Origin: Lasiodiplodia sp. COLG20
Lineage: Eukaryota; Ascomycota; Dothideomycetes; Botryosphaeriales; Botryosphaeriaceae
Assembly (NCBI GenBank): GCA_009801085.1
Contig: VNWV01000005.1
Coordinates: forward strand, 2,790,001 to 2,854,000
Direction of reading: 5' to 3'
DNA length: 64,000 nt
The notes below the pieces were generated by a model, which made no database searches, was not told the origin of the DNA, and worked only from the letters and a program-made list of their open reading frames with translations. This document shows positions 3,577 to 30,098 of this stretch, piece after piece. Position 1 is the stretch's first letter, and each line of letters opens with the position of its first letter. Position numbers and translations under genes: made by a program.

Positions 3577-5010
3577 ATCTTTCCGTCACGCTCGGCAATG
3601 AGGGTTTAAAAATGGTTAGGGGATCAGGGGGGAAAGGATAGAAAGAAGCGTCCGAGGAGGAGCATTTTCTCTCTGGGTTGGGATGATAAAGGAGTTTTTT
3701 CCATCTCATCGGCGCATGTGCGAAAAGCAAAGAGCAAATGGCTGGATTATGATCACGAGCTGGGGAATTGGCTCGGGTTCGGGGATTTTGACTCCTTTGC
3801 GCTAACTCGAATCGAAACAATTTCCAATCCAACGCTTTTTTCGGCATACTGGAGGATTATTCTTGCTGAACATATCCGACCCGGATGAAATGTTTTGGGA
3901 ACTTGGTATTGCTCTAGTGCTCAAACTTCTGGCCAAAAGTGCGAGATTGTGGGAGTTAACGCCATGATATCAATGCTGGGTTCCTTCGTGTTACAAGGAC
4001 GAAGTGGATTCAGCCGTCATTGCGACAAAGTCAACATGATTCAAGCCCTTGTTCGGACGTCTTGTCTGCTGGATTGGATCTGTACGGCTTCGTAAGCACT
4101 TTGCTCTTCTGCACAACTTCACTTTTGCGAACCGGATGAATTGCGTGCGCGTGTAAGTGTTATATGAAGGAGATTATAAGTGGCAGGGCATGAAAAAGGC
4201 ACTGATTGCATGGAGCAACGTTCCTGGTATCTTTTTGCGTCCACAAGATGAGGTTTTCTCATCGTGAAGGACCGTCAGCCCAGCGGTATACTTACCTATG
4301 CACCAAGATTATCTCGGCAAGTCCTGCAGACAATCTCGGTCTCACGCACTTTCCATGGCGACTTCATCACTACCTGATGTTGTATGTATTGTGCTAGCAC
4401 AGTTTCTTCCAGCCTTTATATCATCCTCAAACCAATCAGGTAAGCGCAATCAGACTTCTTGTCGCCAGGCGGAAAATGAACGAAGATCTGTATCGCCAAA
4501 TTTTAGAGAACGCTACAAGCTAGTAGTTCCCCGTTACAATACTTCTCCCTGACGAATTATTCTATAAATACTCAGTTACATTGCTGTTCTGCTGCAAACA
4601 CGGAGTTGTAGGTACAGGACTCCTTATCAGACACTTGCAAGACTGGAGAGCTCTGTAAGCGTGAAGTCCCTGAATAAGGTAGGATACAATATCTCGACGA
4701 CGAAACTAAACGCGTAGCTACATATACGTGAAACGAGTCTACCATCTTCGAAGGAAAAGGCTGTCCATTTGGGGAAAGACTACGCCTTTAACAGCGGATG
4801 GCTTCATATTTCCTCTTCCCATAGCATCCAGCATGTATGCCAACATAACACGAAAGTTTCAACGACCACTATCATACTTCCAAAGGCTCAAGTGGGGCTC
4901 TAGTATTTGCACTAAGGTTTCCCTAGAAATGCATACTAATAATTTTGTGCCTTCAGTCTCACAAAAATATTGGTAAGTTTTAGCTACTCACATTAAATTG
5001 TCGAATCGAG

Positions 5011-5089
5011 AGAGCTGGAGCGATGGTCCGGATGTGATGGTTTAATATTTAAATTGATGTTTGCATCCGGACAAGAGCTTCAGTTCTCC
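5011..5089. repeat. Palindromic foldback repeat, copy 1 (most diverged)
   Basis: About 79 bp. The left arm reads inward AGAGCTGGAGCGATGGTCC and the complement of the right arm AGAACTGAAGCTCTTGTCC. Both continue GGATG, and the centre is AT-rich (tttaatatttaaat). It shares the (T/C)TGAAGCT..TCCGGA arm core with the other three copies but has more mismatches, so it is probably the oldest. Confidence 0.65.
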
Positions 5090-6198: not shown

Positions 6199-6280
6199 GG
6201 GCAGTTGAAGCTACCATCTGGACGTGGATGTTGAATTATTAAATACACATAATACGCCTCGATAGTAGCTTCAACTACCC
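6199..6280. repeat. Palindromic foldback repeat, copy 2
   Basis: 82 bp. The left arm starts GGGCAGTTGAAGCTACCATC and the complement of the right arm GGGTAGTTGAAGCTACTATC, so the element can fold into one long hairpin. The centre is AT-rich (gaattattaaatac). Most arm-to-arm mismatches are transitions. No clear target-site duplication is visible next to the ends. Confidence 0.8.
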
Positions 6281-25265: not shown

Positions 25266-27131
25266 TGTGGTAGTGACTGCGGTGAGTTCACTGCCCGGAT
25301 GGTAGAGGTGTGAGAAGCGAAAGGTCTGTTGAGGATAGAAGTGGTTGAAGGGGTTCAAATATGAGAGAGTGAAAGACTCAGATTCGAGATCAACGGCTCG
25401 GCCAAAACTCTTGATTTGCTGAACACAGATATGAAGAGATGGTTCCTGAAAAGCAGGTCGTGGGTCGGATGGTTAGAATATATAGGTGCGCCACTTTTGT
25501 GGCCACCACCCTCTCTCCTTACTCCACCTACACGAGGGAAAGCAAAAAACGAGGCTTCCAGTCACTACGAATGCACGCCCCACACATCATGCGTGCAGCA
25601 GCAGCGGAAAAACGAGGCACGGACCCAGCGCATCGCATGTACCTGGTACCCGGGACGGAATGGCTGGCTTTTTGCTTCGCTTGGCTGGCCCTGGAGTCGT
25701 ACACGCTGCGCACCCACCAGTCCTCAGCGAACCAGTAGCAAATTCATATCCACCCACCATGGAAAATACGGGAGAGCAAAGAAAAACAAAGGAGAGTTCA
25801 AAATATCTGACCTGTGCCCTCATCCAGCAGGAATGCAATGACAGGAGTAGTCAAGACCGATATCTTTCCTCAAGTGAACGCAGCAGTCCAGTCCGCGGGT
25901 ACAAGCAAGATAGACATGCATAAGAGGAGCCAGGTACAGACCATGACTCATTGCTAGCTTCCGTCTCACGAGGAAGCGCGGACGTAGGACTGTAGAATGC
26001 GGGCCGCATGTGTCGGGCTAGGCAGGGCGTGGACAACAGAGACCGTCTACGCGGTATCGAAGGGATGGTGGGATTGCGAACGTGTGCTACCAGTACGAGT
26101 ACACTGCTTTTGCGACGCTATCACGACCTCGGCACGGACATCCAGACCTGACCAATTGGCCTGAGAGACTGGTTACGGGTGGTTGTTTGGAATGAGGCGA
26201 GCCCACGGTCCACCCGGAGTATCTATGCTTTTTTCCGCAGTGAAAGCCGTTTCTGGTGCATGTCGGCTCATTGCTGATGCAGTGAAGCGTGGAGGAGTAG
26301 GATTCAGGCGACAATGGTCATGAAATGACTGGCTCCGTTTCCAAGCAAGCAATTGGAAGTCTAGTTCATCGGCAATGGACGCGGATGCGGGCAGGAACCA
26401 GAAAGTTGTCCCGTACATTCGCTGTTACCACTCCCTGCCTAGCCTTGGCCAGCAAATAATGCGACATTGAATCGGGCGCATGTAAGGCTGAAATGCACGT
26501 AAATGCAGGCTCTGACGTGGACGAGGCGGGACAACAGGGCGGCTCTGCAAGATCAGTGGACCAGCTTTGTTACAAAAGACGGTTGTGAGTGTGATTGGCT
26601 GCGCGGGCGGATACATGAGCATGCAGCGGAAAGGGGAGGAAAAACCAGAGCCTGCGGATCCACAGCCGTTGGCGCTAAAGCTGCGAATGTCCATGACCCT
26701 GGTCGCTGGCAGCCTGCCTTGCATCGGATGTTGTGACATGTCGGCAAACATCAGCCGGGATCATGGGTTTACAGGAGAACGCGAACAAGCACAGCGCACG
26801 CGTCTATGTAATCTCCGAGGCAGTAAGAGAAAATTCTATCAAATGGTCTGTGTTTTACAATTCTTTCTTCCAGTACGATGGTCGACGCGTGCGAGAGTTG
26901 TCCACTCGAGTGGCCTTTTTGGGATATGTCGCATGAAACCAACCAAAGTGGTCGTGGCGCGTCGATCCACCGCCTCCTCTGCTGCAAGTTTTACCCGGTA
27001 AGAGTACGCCGGGAGATTCGAATCAGCGGCCGTTGGCCATGCGTGGGCATTTCTCTCTTTCATGTGCCAACCTACCAATGCCGGGGACCGAGTCCAGAGG
27101 CTAGCGTGAATTTGTTTTTCAGTCCTGTCAT
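25266..27131. other. Intergenic/accessory region
   Basis: 1.9 kb with the promoter of the GIGGAGN gene at its left end (CT- and GA-rich) and no recognised gene. Open frames up to about 145 codons overlap in many frames and have no family features. The right end abuts palindromic repeat copy 3. Confidence 0.5.
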
Positions 27132-27212
27132 GGGTAGGTGAAGCTATCGTCCAGACGGAAATGTGGAATTGAAAAGTCTACATACACGTCCGGATGATAG
27201 CTTCAGCTACTC
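27132..27212. repeat. Palindromic foldback repeat, copy 3
   Basis: 81 bp. The left arm starts GGGTAGGTGAAGCTATCGTC and the complement of the right arm GAGTAGCTGAAGCTATCATC. The centre is AT-rich. Its right end lies about 10 bp from the stop codon of the endonuclease-like ORF. No obvious target-site duplication. Confidence 0.85.
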
Positions 27213-27222
27213 ACACATGTCG

Positions 27223-28281
27223 TTATTCTAAGTGTTGCGCTATCTCGTACAGCTTGGCGGACAGCACGGGACAGTTCAGTTGGGTATAAAGGGTATCTCG
27301 AAGCGTCGAATAGAGAAGCACATTAGACCAGGCGGCACCATCCTTTAACGCCTTCTCAATCTCACGGAGTGGTGATACTCGAGAGCGCAAGTCACGGTAT
27401 CGGTGGTGACTATGCCATTTTGCAATGGCGTTAACAACACAGGGAATTGCTTGACGAGGCCATGGAGTAGGCGGTCCACGTGGCGGTGAAGGCTCCTGAA
27501 TAACAGCGAAATCGATATATCCCTTAAGAAAAACCTGGCAGGCTTGACTCCTTGGGTCGATGTCTGAGAGTGAAGGCGGGCTGATGGAGCTCTGATTCAC
27601 CATCTCGTAGATATCGAATAAGAGGTTGGAATCCACGCTTTGAGGATCGGTCCAGTAGCCAGGGACGTAAGGGTCGGCCGGGTTACCTCCTGGAATCAGA
27701 GGAACAAAGATGAACCCTGGGTTGGTCAAACAACGAGGGTAACACCTGCAGAGCTTTGCTCCTGAATGGCAGTACTTTCGTTGCGAATTCAGGTAGCTCG
27801 ATTCGAACACGACGTGGTGCCAGTTTTCACAGGTCTTGACCCCGCAAAGATGGGACTTTTCGTAGAAGAACTCACCATTGACGATCATGAAGATTAGGTC
27901 AACACGTGCCTTGTCGTGGTGTTGGTATGCGGAAAAGCCGTGTGCGATCCGGGTAAGATCGTAAACATGAGCTTGGTGTGTATGGCGATCGACACCATGC
28001 CGTAGAGGTGGAAGAGCCTTCGTTCGTGCAGCCGTCTTGCTTCTCTTCCAGCAACCCACACGGCCTTTAGACTTGAAGGTCTCGATCTGCTCAATAAGAG
28101 CGGTTCGGATAGCATGGTTCATGATACCGAACTGTGCCCACTCAACTTCGGAAGAAAGGAGTGTTGCGGGACAAGTGGCCTTGGAGTATGCCGCAATATG
28201 GTCTCCGAAATTGAGAGCCGAATTCACATCGAAGATGACGTAGTACCCCGGTAAATCCCTGGGACGGAAACCGGGGAGCAT
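27223..28281 (-). CDS. His-Cys-box / His-Me finger endonuclease-like protein
   Basis: A single open frame of 352 aa with a true ATG. Residues 146-184 show C146-x4-C151-x4-H156-x3-E160-x4-N165-x2-R168-x2-C171, then C178, C180 and C184. This is the spacing of the zinc-binding, active-site loop of His-Cys-box homing endonucleases such as I-PpoI (Pfam zf-His_Me_endon), with H156 as the expected general base and N165 as the metal ligand. The rest of the protein, including an Asp/Tyr/Pro-rich stretch after residue 190, is not recognised. Nuclease activity is inference. The frame lies between two 81-bp palindromic repeats. The upstream frame continues past an in-frame TAG, so the N-terminus may be truncated or spliced. 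There are no clear neighbours of related function. Confidence 0.7.
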   Translation of the reverse strand: MLPGFRPRDLPGYYVIFDVNSALNFGDHIAAYSKATCPATLLSSEVEWAQFGIMNHAIRTALIEQIETFKSKGRVGCWKRSKTAARTKALPPLRHGVDRHTHQAHVYDLTRIAHGFSAYQHHDKARVDLIFMIVNGEFFYEKSHLCGVKTCENWHHVVFESSYLNSQRKYCHSGAKLCRCYPRCLTNPGFIFVPLIPGGNPADPYVPGYWTDPQSVDSNLLFDIYEMVNQSSISPPSLSDIDPRSQACQVFLKGYIDFAVIQEPSPPRGPPTPWPRQAIPCVVNAIAKWHSHHRYRDLRSRVSPLREIEKALKDGAAWSNVLLYSTLRDTLYTQLNCPVLSAKLYEIAQHLE

Positions 28282-28364
28282 TTGTAAGTTGGCCTCATTC
28301 CCAGGCGGTTCAATGAACTCCGGGTCATCCTAGTAGTCCTCAAGTAGCAAAAAAGAACATATAT

Positions 28365-28445
28365 GGGTAGTTGAAGCTATCGTCCGGACGTAAATGTAAA
28401 ATTAATAATTAAACATTAACATCCGGAAGATAGCTTCAACTACCC
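28365..28445. repeat. Palindromic foldback repeat, copy 4
   Basis: 81 bp and the most regular copy. The left arm is GGGTAGTTGAAGCTATCGTC and the complement of the right arm GGGTAGTTGAAGCTATCTTC. Both continue CGGA, with an AT-only core (aattaataattaaa). It lies 84 bp upstream of the ATG of the endonuclease-like ORF. Confidence 0.88.
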
Positions 28446-30098
28446 GCGCCATGTTTTTTTTTTCCATCAAAATAAAGAAGAACTGGGGCATACTTCCGTT
28501 GCTATTCTTCGCTCTAGCCATCGGCTGCAGTACACTGTTAGCAAAAGGGAAATTTCAATGGTATGCGGCCGCAGCCGACTTATGGCCTGTGCGCTGTCTC
28601 AGCCCGTTGCGCCCAATACTTTGAGTCAATAGCACTCCAGATTGCAGACAGCTGATGAAGCCTCGGTTCAGGATCACTCGATTCGACACGGAGCCATAAA
28701 CATGACTATTCCTGGTCGACACGGCTCACCGCAAGAGGGGCGAGGCAAGCGGACAGTGGAAGTGGCTGTCAAGTCTGCCACACTGTTTCAGACATTTCCA
28801 ATGGCGGCAGCGCTACGACGCCACGTACCGGGTTTCGATGGATGAGATTCGCCCGAACGACTCCAGGCGCAGTGTTCCTTAGGAGCGTGGTACAGCAGCA
28901 TGAGCAGAATGTTTCAGATGGATGCAGCTGGCGACAGTTTGAGCTGTGGCTGCTCTTTAAGAGGCTCGTACCCGGGAACAAGAGCATCCCAGCAACCAGG
29001 AACCATGTTCAGCCTTTGAGCCTCTGGAATTGGCGGGGAAGCTGCTGCGCCAAGTGGCCCTCGGAATGGCGGTCCAGGGAGGGGTTTTCATTCGTTATAT
29101 GAAGACTTCGATGCTTCCACAACGCCAATCGGCCAGGGTAGAGGAGGTGGTCAGTCCTTCTCAGTGTGTGTGCTCGGAACAAGACTGCAGCTTCCCGAGC
29201 ACATGCGGGGTTGGAGGCATCTGGCAGGCGTCAGGGTTTGGGGTGACACGCTCGGTAGGTGCCGCCCATTACACAGCTTGAGCAAACTCAAAGTCGACAA
29301 ACGGTAGCACGAGAGTCGGATAGTGGCGAGCTGGAGGAAGAGTGCAGACAAGTGGTGCGCCAAGCAAGGTCATACGGGAGTGGAGTGGTGCCGGAATCCG
29401 ACAGTATGAGGCGATGGAGTGATGTTGCGATGAGGAAGCGTCGGGGTTGTCAGAACAGGCACTAGCCGTCGGCTTGCCGCAATGGGAAGGCAGCCGCCTC
29501 CGCTCTTACGATTCTTCTCTCCACTTCCGCCAACTCGGCTTCTCCAACCCGGAAACCTCAATCACCGAGATCTATGCCCATCTCTTGGAGCGAATGGGCG
29601 AACTGCAATCGACTTTCAAATTTCCATCTTCCAGGCAGCCGTGTGGAATAAGGCGGAACTTTGCGCTCCCAACCGGCCTCCTCCCAAGACACGACGCCGC
29701 ACCAAGAGGCTTGTTAGACCCACATTGGCATCCTGCCGCGAGTGGATTGGCCGGCGCGTGAGGCGAAAGCCGTTATATTGTGAGGGCAGGGAGAATGCCG
29801 TCATAGCGTTATGCCCCGCAACTTCCCCAGAGCATCTAACCCCGCCATCTTCACTCTAGGTCGCCGCACGACCGGAGAATGTCAACCCTTTGGGCGCTCG
29901 AGCTGCCAATGATCGGCACTGGCATCCGCCCTCTCCTTAGCTACAAGTATCATGCTCTCCGTCGGCGTGCTCCAGTTCCAGATCCTTCCTTCTCCGCACC
30001 TCTCCTGAGCGTCTCGTGAGCTGTGCGGCGCAGTATCCTTTCTCTCAAATAAAATCCCCTCGTCGACCTTTAATATCTCTCACACAATTAATCCCAAC
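28446..30098. other. Intergenic region upstream of bdh1
   Basis: 1.65 kb without a recognised gene. The last 150 bp (CT-rich, then ctcacacaatt) are the likely promoter and leader of the dehydrogenase gene. The rest has only short open frames. Confidence 0.5.

Follow-up and report, generated by a model that had tools for sequence, protein, structure and literature searches.

Introduction

Whether a nuclease gene lying between two copies of one palindrome forms a single mobile unit with them, or whether the repeats reached it separately, is the question raised by a locus of the fungus Lasiodiplodia sp. COLG20 (contig VNWV01000005.1, positions 2,790,001 to 2,854,000; these 64,000 nucleotides are the window of this report). 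Given that the contig extends over 3.19 Mb and that the window carries nuclear-type genes, those of RNA polymerase I A49, RIX1 and a SUN-domain protein among others, the locus is nuclear. A sequence-only reading had proposed the first answer, with the palindromes as the ends of a 1.3-kb mobile unit. The present analysis instead favors, with a probability of roughly two in three, a nuclease gene in decay, one of a small and dispersed I-PpoI-like family, which two copies of an abundant palindrome-cored MITE, each arriving on its own, have flanked and truncated. A nuclease clade that repeatedly abuts one palindromic MITE family is a concrete substrate for enzyme tests and provides a case in which a probably selfish gene ends at a stop codon supplied by a MITE; if tolerance of insertion alone is behind the association, what is seen is ordinary nested mobile debris.

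The Nuclease Frame

The frame of 352 codons runs from an ATG start on the minus strand (27223..28281), and Pfam, motif and alignment place its product among the relatives of I-PpoI. The 352-aa protein matches PF05551, the family that covers the zinc-binding loop of His-Cys box endonucleases, with 39.1 bits (cut-off 27; E 1.1e-9). When the ORF is combined with its relatives in a profile, the PDB search retrieves I-PpoI (E 3e-4); the ORF's single sequence as query gives no match to I-PpoI. Together with the alignment of residues, these matches bear out the nuclease homology that had been proposed, as does the His-Cys box spacing: the motif C-x4-C-x4-H-x3-E-x4-N-x2-R-x2-C begins at C146, and the three further cysteines are C178, C180 and C184.

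Because the SHLC of I-PpoI aligns with S143-H144-L145-C146 in the profile alignment, the equivalents of its His98 and Asn119 are H144 and N165, which by this alignment are the predicted positions of the catalytic base and the metal ligand, respectively. Of the pair H156 and N165 first named as key residues, N165 is thus retained, as the metal ligand, and H156 yields to H144; H156 aligns with I-PpoI H110, which is presumably a zinc ligand. H110 is counted with the catalytic motif in PMC9587614, which sets out catalytic-residue roles in I-PpoI-like nucleases. The zinc positions C146, C151 and H156, and C171, C178 and C184, are present by alignment, with one ligand of site 1 outside the aligned part. 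In its catalytic motif, its zinc positions and a PF05551 score above the cut-off the protein resembles I-PpoI and the His-Cys box homing endonucleases; unlike I-PpoI, it has a cysteine (C180) in the position of one zinc histidine. As to the ββα-metal fold that was expected of it, an AlphaFold model of the nuclease from four sequences has a mean pLDDT of 34.5, too low to place such a fold.

The frame is open but damaged. Two metagenome proteins, P0001 (86% identical to the ORF over 199 aa) and P0003 (84% over 138 aa), both go on after LRDT as ALHPA.LSRAV.QAVRD..TL, and the window homology to this stretch lies at 27212..27292 of the minus strand in a frame other than the ORF's, the change falling near 27289-27292. 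The ORF's own last residues beyond LRDT are unlike either protein. Since the homology shifts frame after LRDT, the last ~20 codons of the ORF are out of frame, and its TAA stop falls in the MITE-type flank of palindrome 1; what had been described as an intact 352-codon frame is thus open over its 352 codons but not intact.

The homology to P0001 and P0003 ends ~16 bp short of palindrome 1. P0003 itself ends in the residues RITTYVGR, and because flank plus palindrome, as AGA ATA ACG ACA TAT GTG GGT AGG TGA, would encode RITTYVGR and a stop, we infer that the P0003 gene probably carries a palindrome at the same point as the window ORF. P0001 diverges from both at that junction and continues differently. 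Of three copies, all ~85% identical, two thus seem to have the joint between nuclease and palindrome and one to lack it; given that it is apparently shared with a protein only 84% identical, the joint would be no recent accident and may be kept. For the N-terminal part of the ORF the relatives found are P0001 alone, over 18% of the query. A further metagenome protein, P0002 (from a 27.9-kb contig), is by eye very like the decayed nuclease of locus L059, so that a relative of L059 seems to be present in another genome.

The Palindromic Repeat

That the ORF is bracketed by two 81-bp palindromes was also correct as first read, with palindrome 1 at 27132..27212 and palindrome 2 at 28365..28445; of the gaps to the ORF that were given, 10 bp holds and 84 bp becomes 83 bp on measurement. 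Both palindromes are detected on both strands by a cmsearch model built from copies other than these two (best E 2.3e-17 and 4.4e-23, respectively), and the repeat search gives arm complementarities of 78% and 88%. Each is the core of a MITE copy. On the outer side of palindrome 1 lies a degenerate MITE end of the X side (27072..27131, plus strand, with GGCTAGCGTGAATTT from 27099; outer limit approximate, by eye), which clusters with 22 other palindrome flanks. Its inner flank, CACATGTCGTTATTCT (27213..27228, minus strand), includes the TAA at which the ORF ends and is of a MITE flank type that also adjoins the nuclease-free palindromes L009, L014 and L066. By flank comparison the inner flank of palindrome 2 (28349..28364, minus strand), ahead of the nuclease 5' side, is likewise MITE-type, and the outer flank is a MITE Y side ending CTAGCCATCGGCTGCAGTA (28446..28541, plus strand; outer limit approximate, by eye). 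Two further copies of the palindrome lie in the window, one at 6199..6280 with no nuclease homology adjoining (cmsearch and flank reading) and a degenerate one at 5009..5089 (cmsearch).

Neither the nuclease motif nor the repeat is a product of chance: beside the PF05551 match at E 1.1e-9, a 14-nt palindrome arm has 444 exact matches in the 43.5-Mb genome and its reversed control 0. The end motif GCAGCCGATGGCTAGCG has 541 genome matches at <=1 mismatch, again with 0 for the control. In the flanks of 50 matches, one side of the element reads TGACATGAGC...CACGCTAGCCATCGGCTGC...CTGTA and the other CATATGTTATTTTTTC...CTAGCCATCGGCTGC with the same end inverted, the second flank being variable among copies. 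Complete copies measure ~240 bp and end TA-CAG...CTG-TA (by eye). The repeat is a MITE with a palindromic core. Tc1/mariner-type MITEs are known from filamentous fungi, and the repeat is like them in being short, with no coding seen, and in its terminal inverted repeats, the TA at both ends and its hundreds of dispersed copies; it is unlike them in having as its core an 81-bp palindrome that has changed less than the sequence around it. No transposase with matching ends was identified, the search for one family, DDE_1, giving five matches. Most likely the MITE would have spread as a non-autonomous Tc1/mariner-type element, with transposase supplied in trans.

Maintenance of the palindrome by pairing, whether as RNA or as a single-stranded hairpin, was considered and is rejected, since four of five measures in 31 copies do not exceed shuffles: pairing holds in 90.6% of cells (90.7% in shuffles), the covariation score is equaled or exceeded in 243/500 shuffles, 9 cells are changed on both arms (11.8 in shuffles) and further pair types number 22 (20.9; 148/500). 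Only pairs with change on both sides stand above shuffles (9 vs 5.1; 1/500). Because pairing and covariation match the shuffles, we read the arm pairing as inherited rather than maintained, the one measure being contrary. If palindromes recombine among themselves, copies should arise in which one palindrome joins two sides of the same type, and such copies are seen (two Y-type sides at palindrome 2 of the window and at L057, two X-type sides at L064).

The Nuclease Clade and Its Palindromes

The clade of the window nuclease has seven other loci, L053-L059, and six of them carry a palindrome within 1 kb (profile E 1e-10); at the exception, L056, the nearest is ~1.5 kb off. With the window locus left out, nuclease intervals set by hand and sites within 300 bp merged, 8 palindrome sites fall in 24.8 kb near the clade loci, compared with 2 in 137 kb of control sequence made up of the window, other PF05551 loci and outer flanks (conditional binomial p ~1e-5); over nine combinations of threshold and distance, p ranges from 7e-6 to 2e-4. 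In the fetched flanks of six other PF05551 loci (L060, L061, L040, L041, L047, L049) no palindrome was found. A non-random association between clade and palindrome is thus supported. Co-occurrence throughout the genome had been put forward as a check; among the best candidates, 2/44 other palindrome 2-like places and 0/39 other palindrome 1-like places are at clade loci. A site at C1:6934143 (E 0.219) was rejected as a nuclease locus, as it has no tblastn match of the window protein and lies antisense in a long acidic ORF, and the palindrome near it was excluded from the count.

The arrangement varies. In the window locus and in L054 the nuclease sequence stands between two palindromes; in L053 one palindrome lies within the nuclease sequence and a second at the 3' end; L059 has one clear palindrome and, on the opposite side, a weak half-palindrome (E 2e-4); L055 has two on one side; and L057 and L058 have one each. 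The orientation of the flanking MITE likewise differs from locus to locus. Seen by eye, only ~16-45 bp of MITE sequence follow the palindrome on the nuclease-facing side at both joints of the window, both of L053, and those of L055, L057 and L058, whereas a complete MITE end is kept at L059 and on the 3' side of L054, and a degenerate one on the L054 5' side. Plain insertion, which leaves ends on both sides, does not predict these nuclease-facing sides so often lacking the terminal repeat. The nuclease stop lies in MITE sequence not only in the window (TAA) but also at L053 (TGA, in an X flank) and L058 (TAA, in a Y flank), and at L057 the nuclease frame continues into the palindrome. At L053:4477-4600 a palindrome with a MITE X side sits inside the nuclease coding sequence. 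The coding on either side of that palindrome partly overlaps, by eye, as if two nuclease copies had been joined.

One Mobile Unit or Separate Arrivals

The bracketed block is single-copy in the genome, the seven other nuclease loci of the clade being 24-42% identical. In a set of 49 copies the average pair shares 85% identity, palindromes 1 and 2 share 80%, and when the 48 other copies are ordered by likeness to one of these two, its partner comes 34th in one case and 46th in the other; palindrome 1 is not among 45 places for palindrome 2 (best 40 of 742 candidates scored), nor palindrome 2 among 40 places for palindrome 1 (best 40 of 633 candidates scored). In light of this identity and the mutual absence from the genome-wide best candidates, the two palindromes look like independent arrivals by sequence comparison. 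Among 24 loci around palindrome 2-like copies, the window (L001) and L017 on contig C78 are nuclease loci, and none of the other 22, which belong to the 44 other palindrome 2-like places above, shows nuclease homology within 1.5 kb once matches that merely read the palindrome are set aside. Further, palindrome pairs bracket unrelated ORFs at L064, L065 and L066, in which no Pfam family was found. With a single-copy block, palindromes that are no sisters and pairs that enclose other ORFs too, the proposal that the pair marks the ends of a 1.3-kb mobile unit is not supported. No empty insertion site was seen in this genome.

At L064 (G000:C1:2674100-2675400) the two palindromes are 98% identical and enclose a 152-codon frame for which the genome offers no second match and Pfam no family; the outer arms form 169-bp inverted repeats, identical to each other, and reach past the MITE end. 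This locus is a recent palindrome-linked inverted duplication. Its candidacy as a nuclease C-terminus was dropped, there being no Pfam support and the tblastn matches there reading the palindrome.

The preferred reading, of a decaying nuclease gene flanked and truncated by separately arrived MITEs, would have MITE copies inserting at several loci into nuclease genes or next to them, often cutting off the 3' coding part and supplying a stop codon without an end of their own on the nuclease-facing side; palindrome-prone rearrangement may then have trimmed those ends. The enrichment could mean that insertions are tolerated because the gene is dispensable and probably selfish, or it could reflect a hotspot of palindrome-prone rearrangement, and a direct role of the nuclease in the association is possible. 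Counting against the preferred reading are the junction apparently shared with P0003, the many nuclease-facing sides that lack the terminal repeat, and the weak enrichment under the exact-arm count given below.

A composite-like mobile element, in which the nuclease is cargo between MITE or palindrome ends that also move alone, as in KolobokP of animals, is doubtful. Both outer flanks of the window pair do run into MITE ends, palindromes flank nuclease sequence at L054 as well as here while five more clade loci carry one or two, and the junction is apparently common to P0003. Against this, the block is not repeated and its repeats are not sisters, MITE orientation varies by locus, other ORFs are enclosed in the same way, and no transposase was found in ten window ORFs; of 46 ORFs listed around the seven clade loci, the 28 searched likewise gave neither a transposase nor any other family of mobile elements. 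KolobokP is the precedent: PMC9587614 describes it as composite-like, its repeats, which are also found alone, enclosing an I-PpoI-like nuclease and a DDD/E transposase, with a TTAA duplication and direct repeats of ~450 or 660 bp. Among the published systems considered it is the nearest to the window locus, and the resemblance in plan is real: an I-PpoI-like nuclease is flanked by repeats with terminal inverted repeats of their own, many repeats are solo and some copies are one-sided. The differences from the system so described are that the host is a fungus, that the ends are TA and that the repeats are ~240 bp with a palindrome, non-sister and of varied orientation. The flanking repeats are not sister copies in direct orientation of ~450 or ~660 bp; the one long frame between the palindromes is the nuclease ORF, which matches PF05551 alone (Pfam), so that no DDD/E transposase lies inside; and the complete MITE copies, by eye, end in TA rather than TTAA.

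Slightly more doubtful is a fungal nuclear partnership of KolobokP-like kind without a transposase of its own, in which the putative nuclease would cut at or near the palindromic MITE, nuclease genes would become joined at their 3' ends to palindromes, and the MITE would ride on, and terminate, the selfish gene.

Pure coincidence, by which MITEs are simply common near genes and the bracket is uninformative, is improbable, because palindromes are enriched near the clade loci. It has on its side the hundreds of MITE copies, their clustering in any case on contig C1 (79 sites, with 9 gaps <3 kb vs 2.2 expected) and the weaker enrichment under a stricter count, in which exact arms lie <=1.5 kb from 2/7 clade loci and from 1/25 HET genes on C1. 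The p values given above, the fetched flanks of the other PF05551 loci (0/6 with a palindrome) and the junction seemingly shared with P0003 speak against it.

Homing, in which the nuclease cuts a palindrome and its gene is copied in to leave palindrome-gene-palindrome, agrees with the semi-palindromic site of I-PpoI (noted in PMC9587614) and with the enrichment, yet is highly improbable, as insertion should leave sister palindromes and the actual pair is less alike than the average one, the joints fall not in the palindrome but 16-45 bp away from it (by eye), and so few of the other best palindrome places (2/44 and 0/39) are at clade loci.

Comparison with Introns, Mitochondrial Elements and Other Loci

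His-Cys box homing enzymes such as I-PpoI usually reside in a group I intron of rDNA, whereas the gene here is free-standing in a nuclear contig, and no Rfam family reached the gathering score within the window that would indicate a group I intron around it. The paralogues also differ from I-PpoI in having extra C-terminal sequence, and L053 in an N-terminal ORF as well. Free-standing nuclear His-Cys box genes, other than those in introns and KolobokP, are not known to have an established function. Fungal mitochondria contain palindromic elements (double-hairpin elements, GC clusters), among them mobile-looking hairpins in or near homing endonuclease genes. The likeness to the window, hairpins at homing endonuclease genes, is one of description, and the present locus differs in being nuclear DNA. 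In the literature searched, which was poor in subscription journals, no fungal case of a His-Me nuclease together with a palindromic MITE was reported.

Several minor observations concern neighboring sequences. Amidohydrolase (PF04909) ORFs lie beside nuclease sequence at L055:6020-6991 and L056:8378-9379; as a shared neighbor they were discarded, the two proteins having no real similarity. HET-domain matches number 150 scored of 429 candidates in the 43.5-Mb genome, which together with the genes of the window is in keeping with a filamentous ascomycete. Finally, the PF05551 loci L041 (G000:C23:6076) and L047 (G000:C88:367864), neither with a palindrome in its fetched flanks, are 83% identical in DNA over 346 bp, and another PF05551 locus lies at C23:28964, close to the same contig end as L041.
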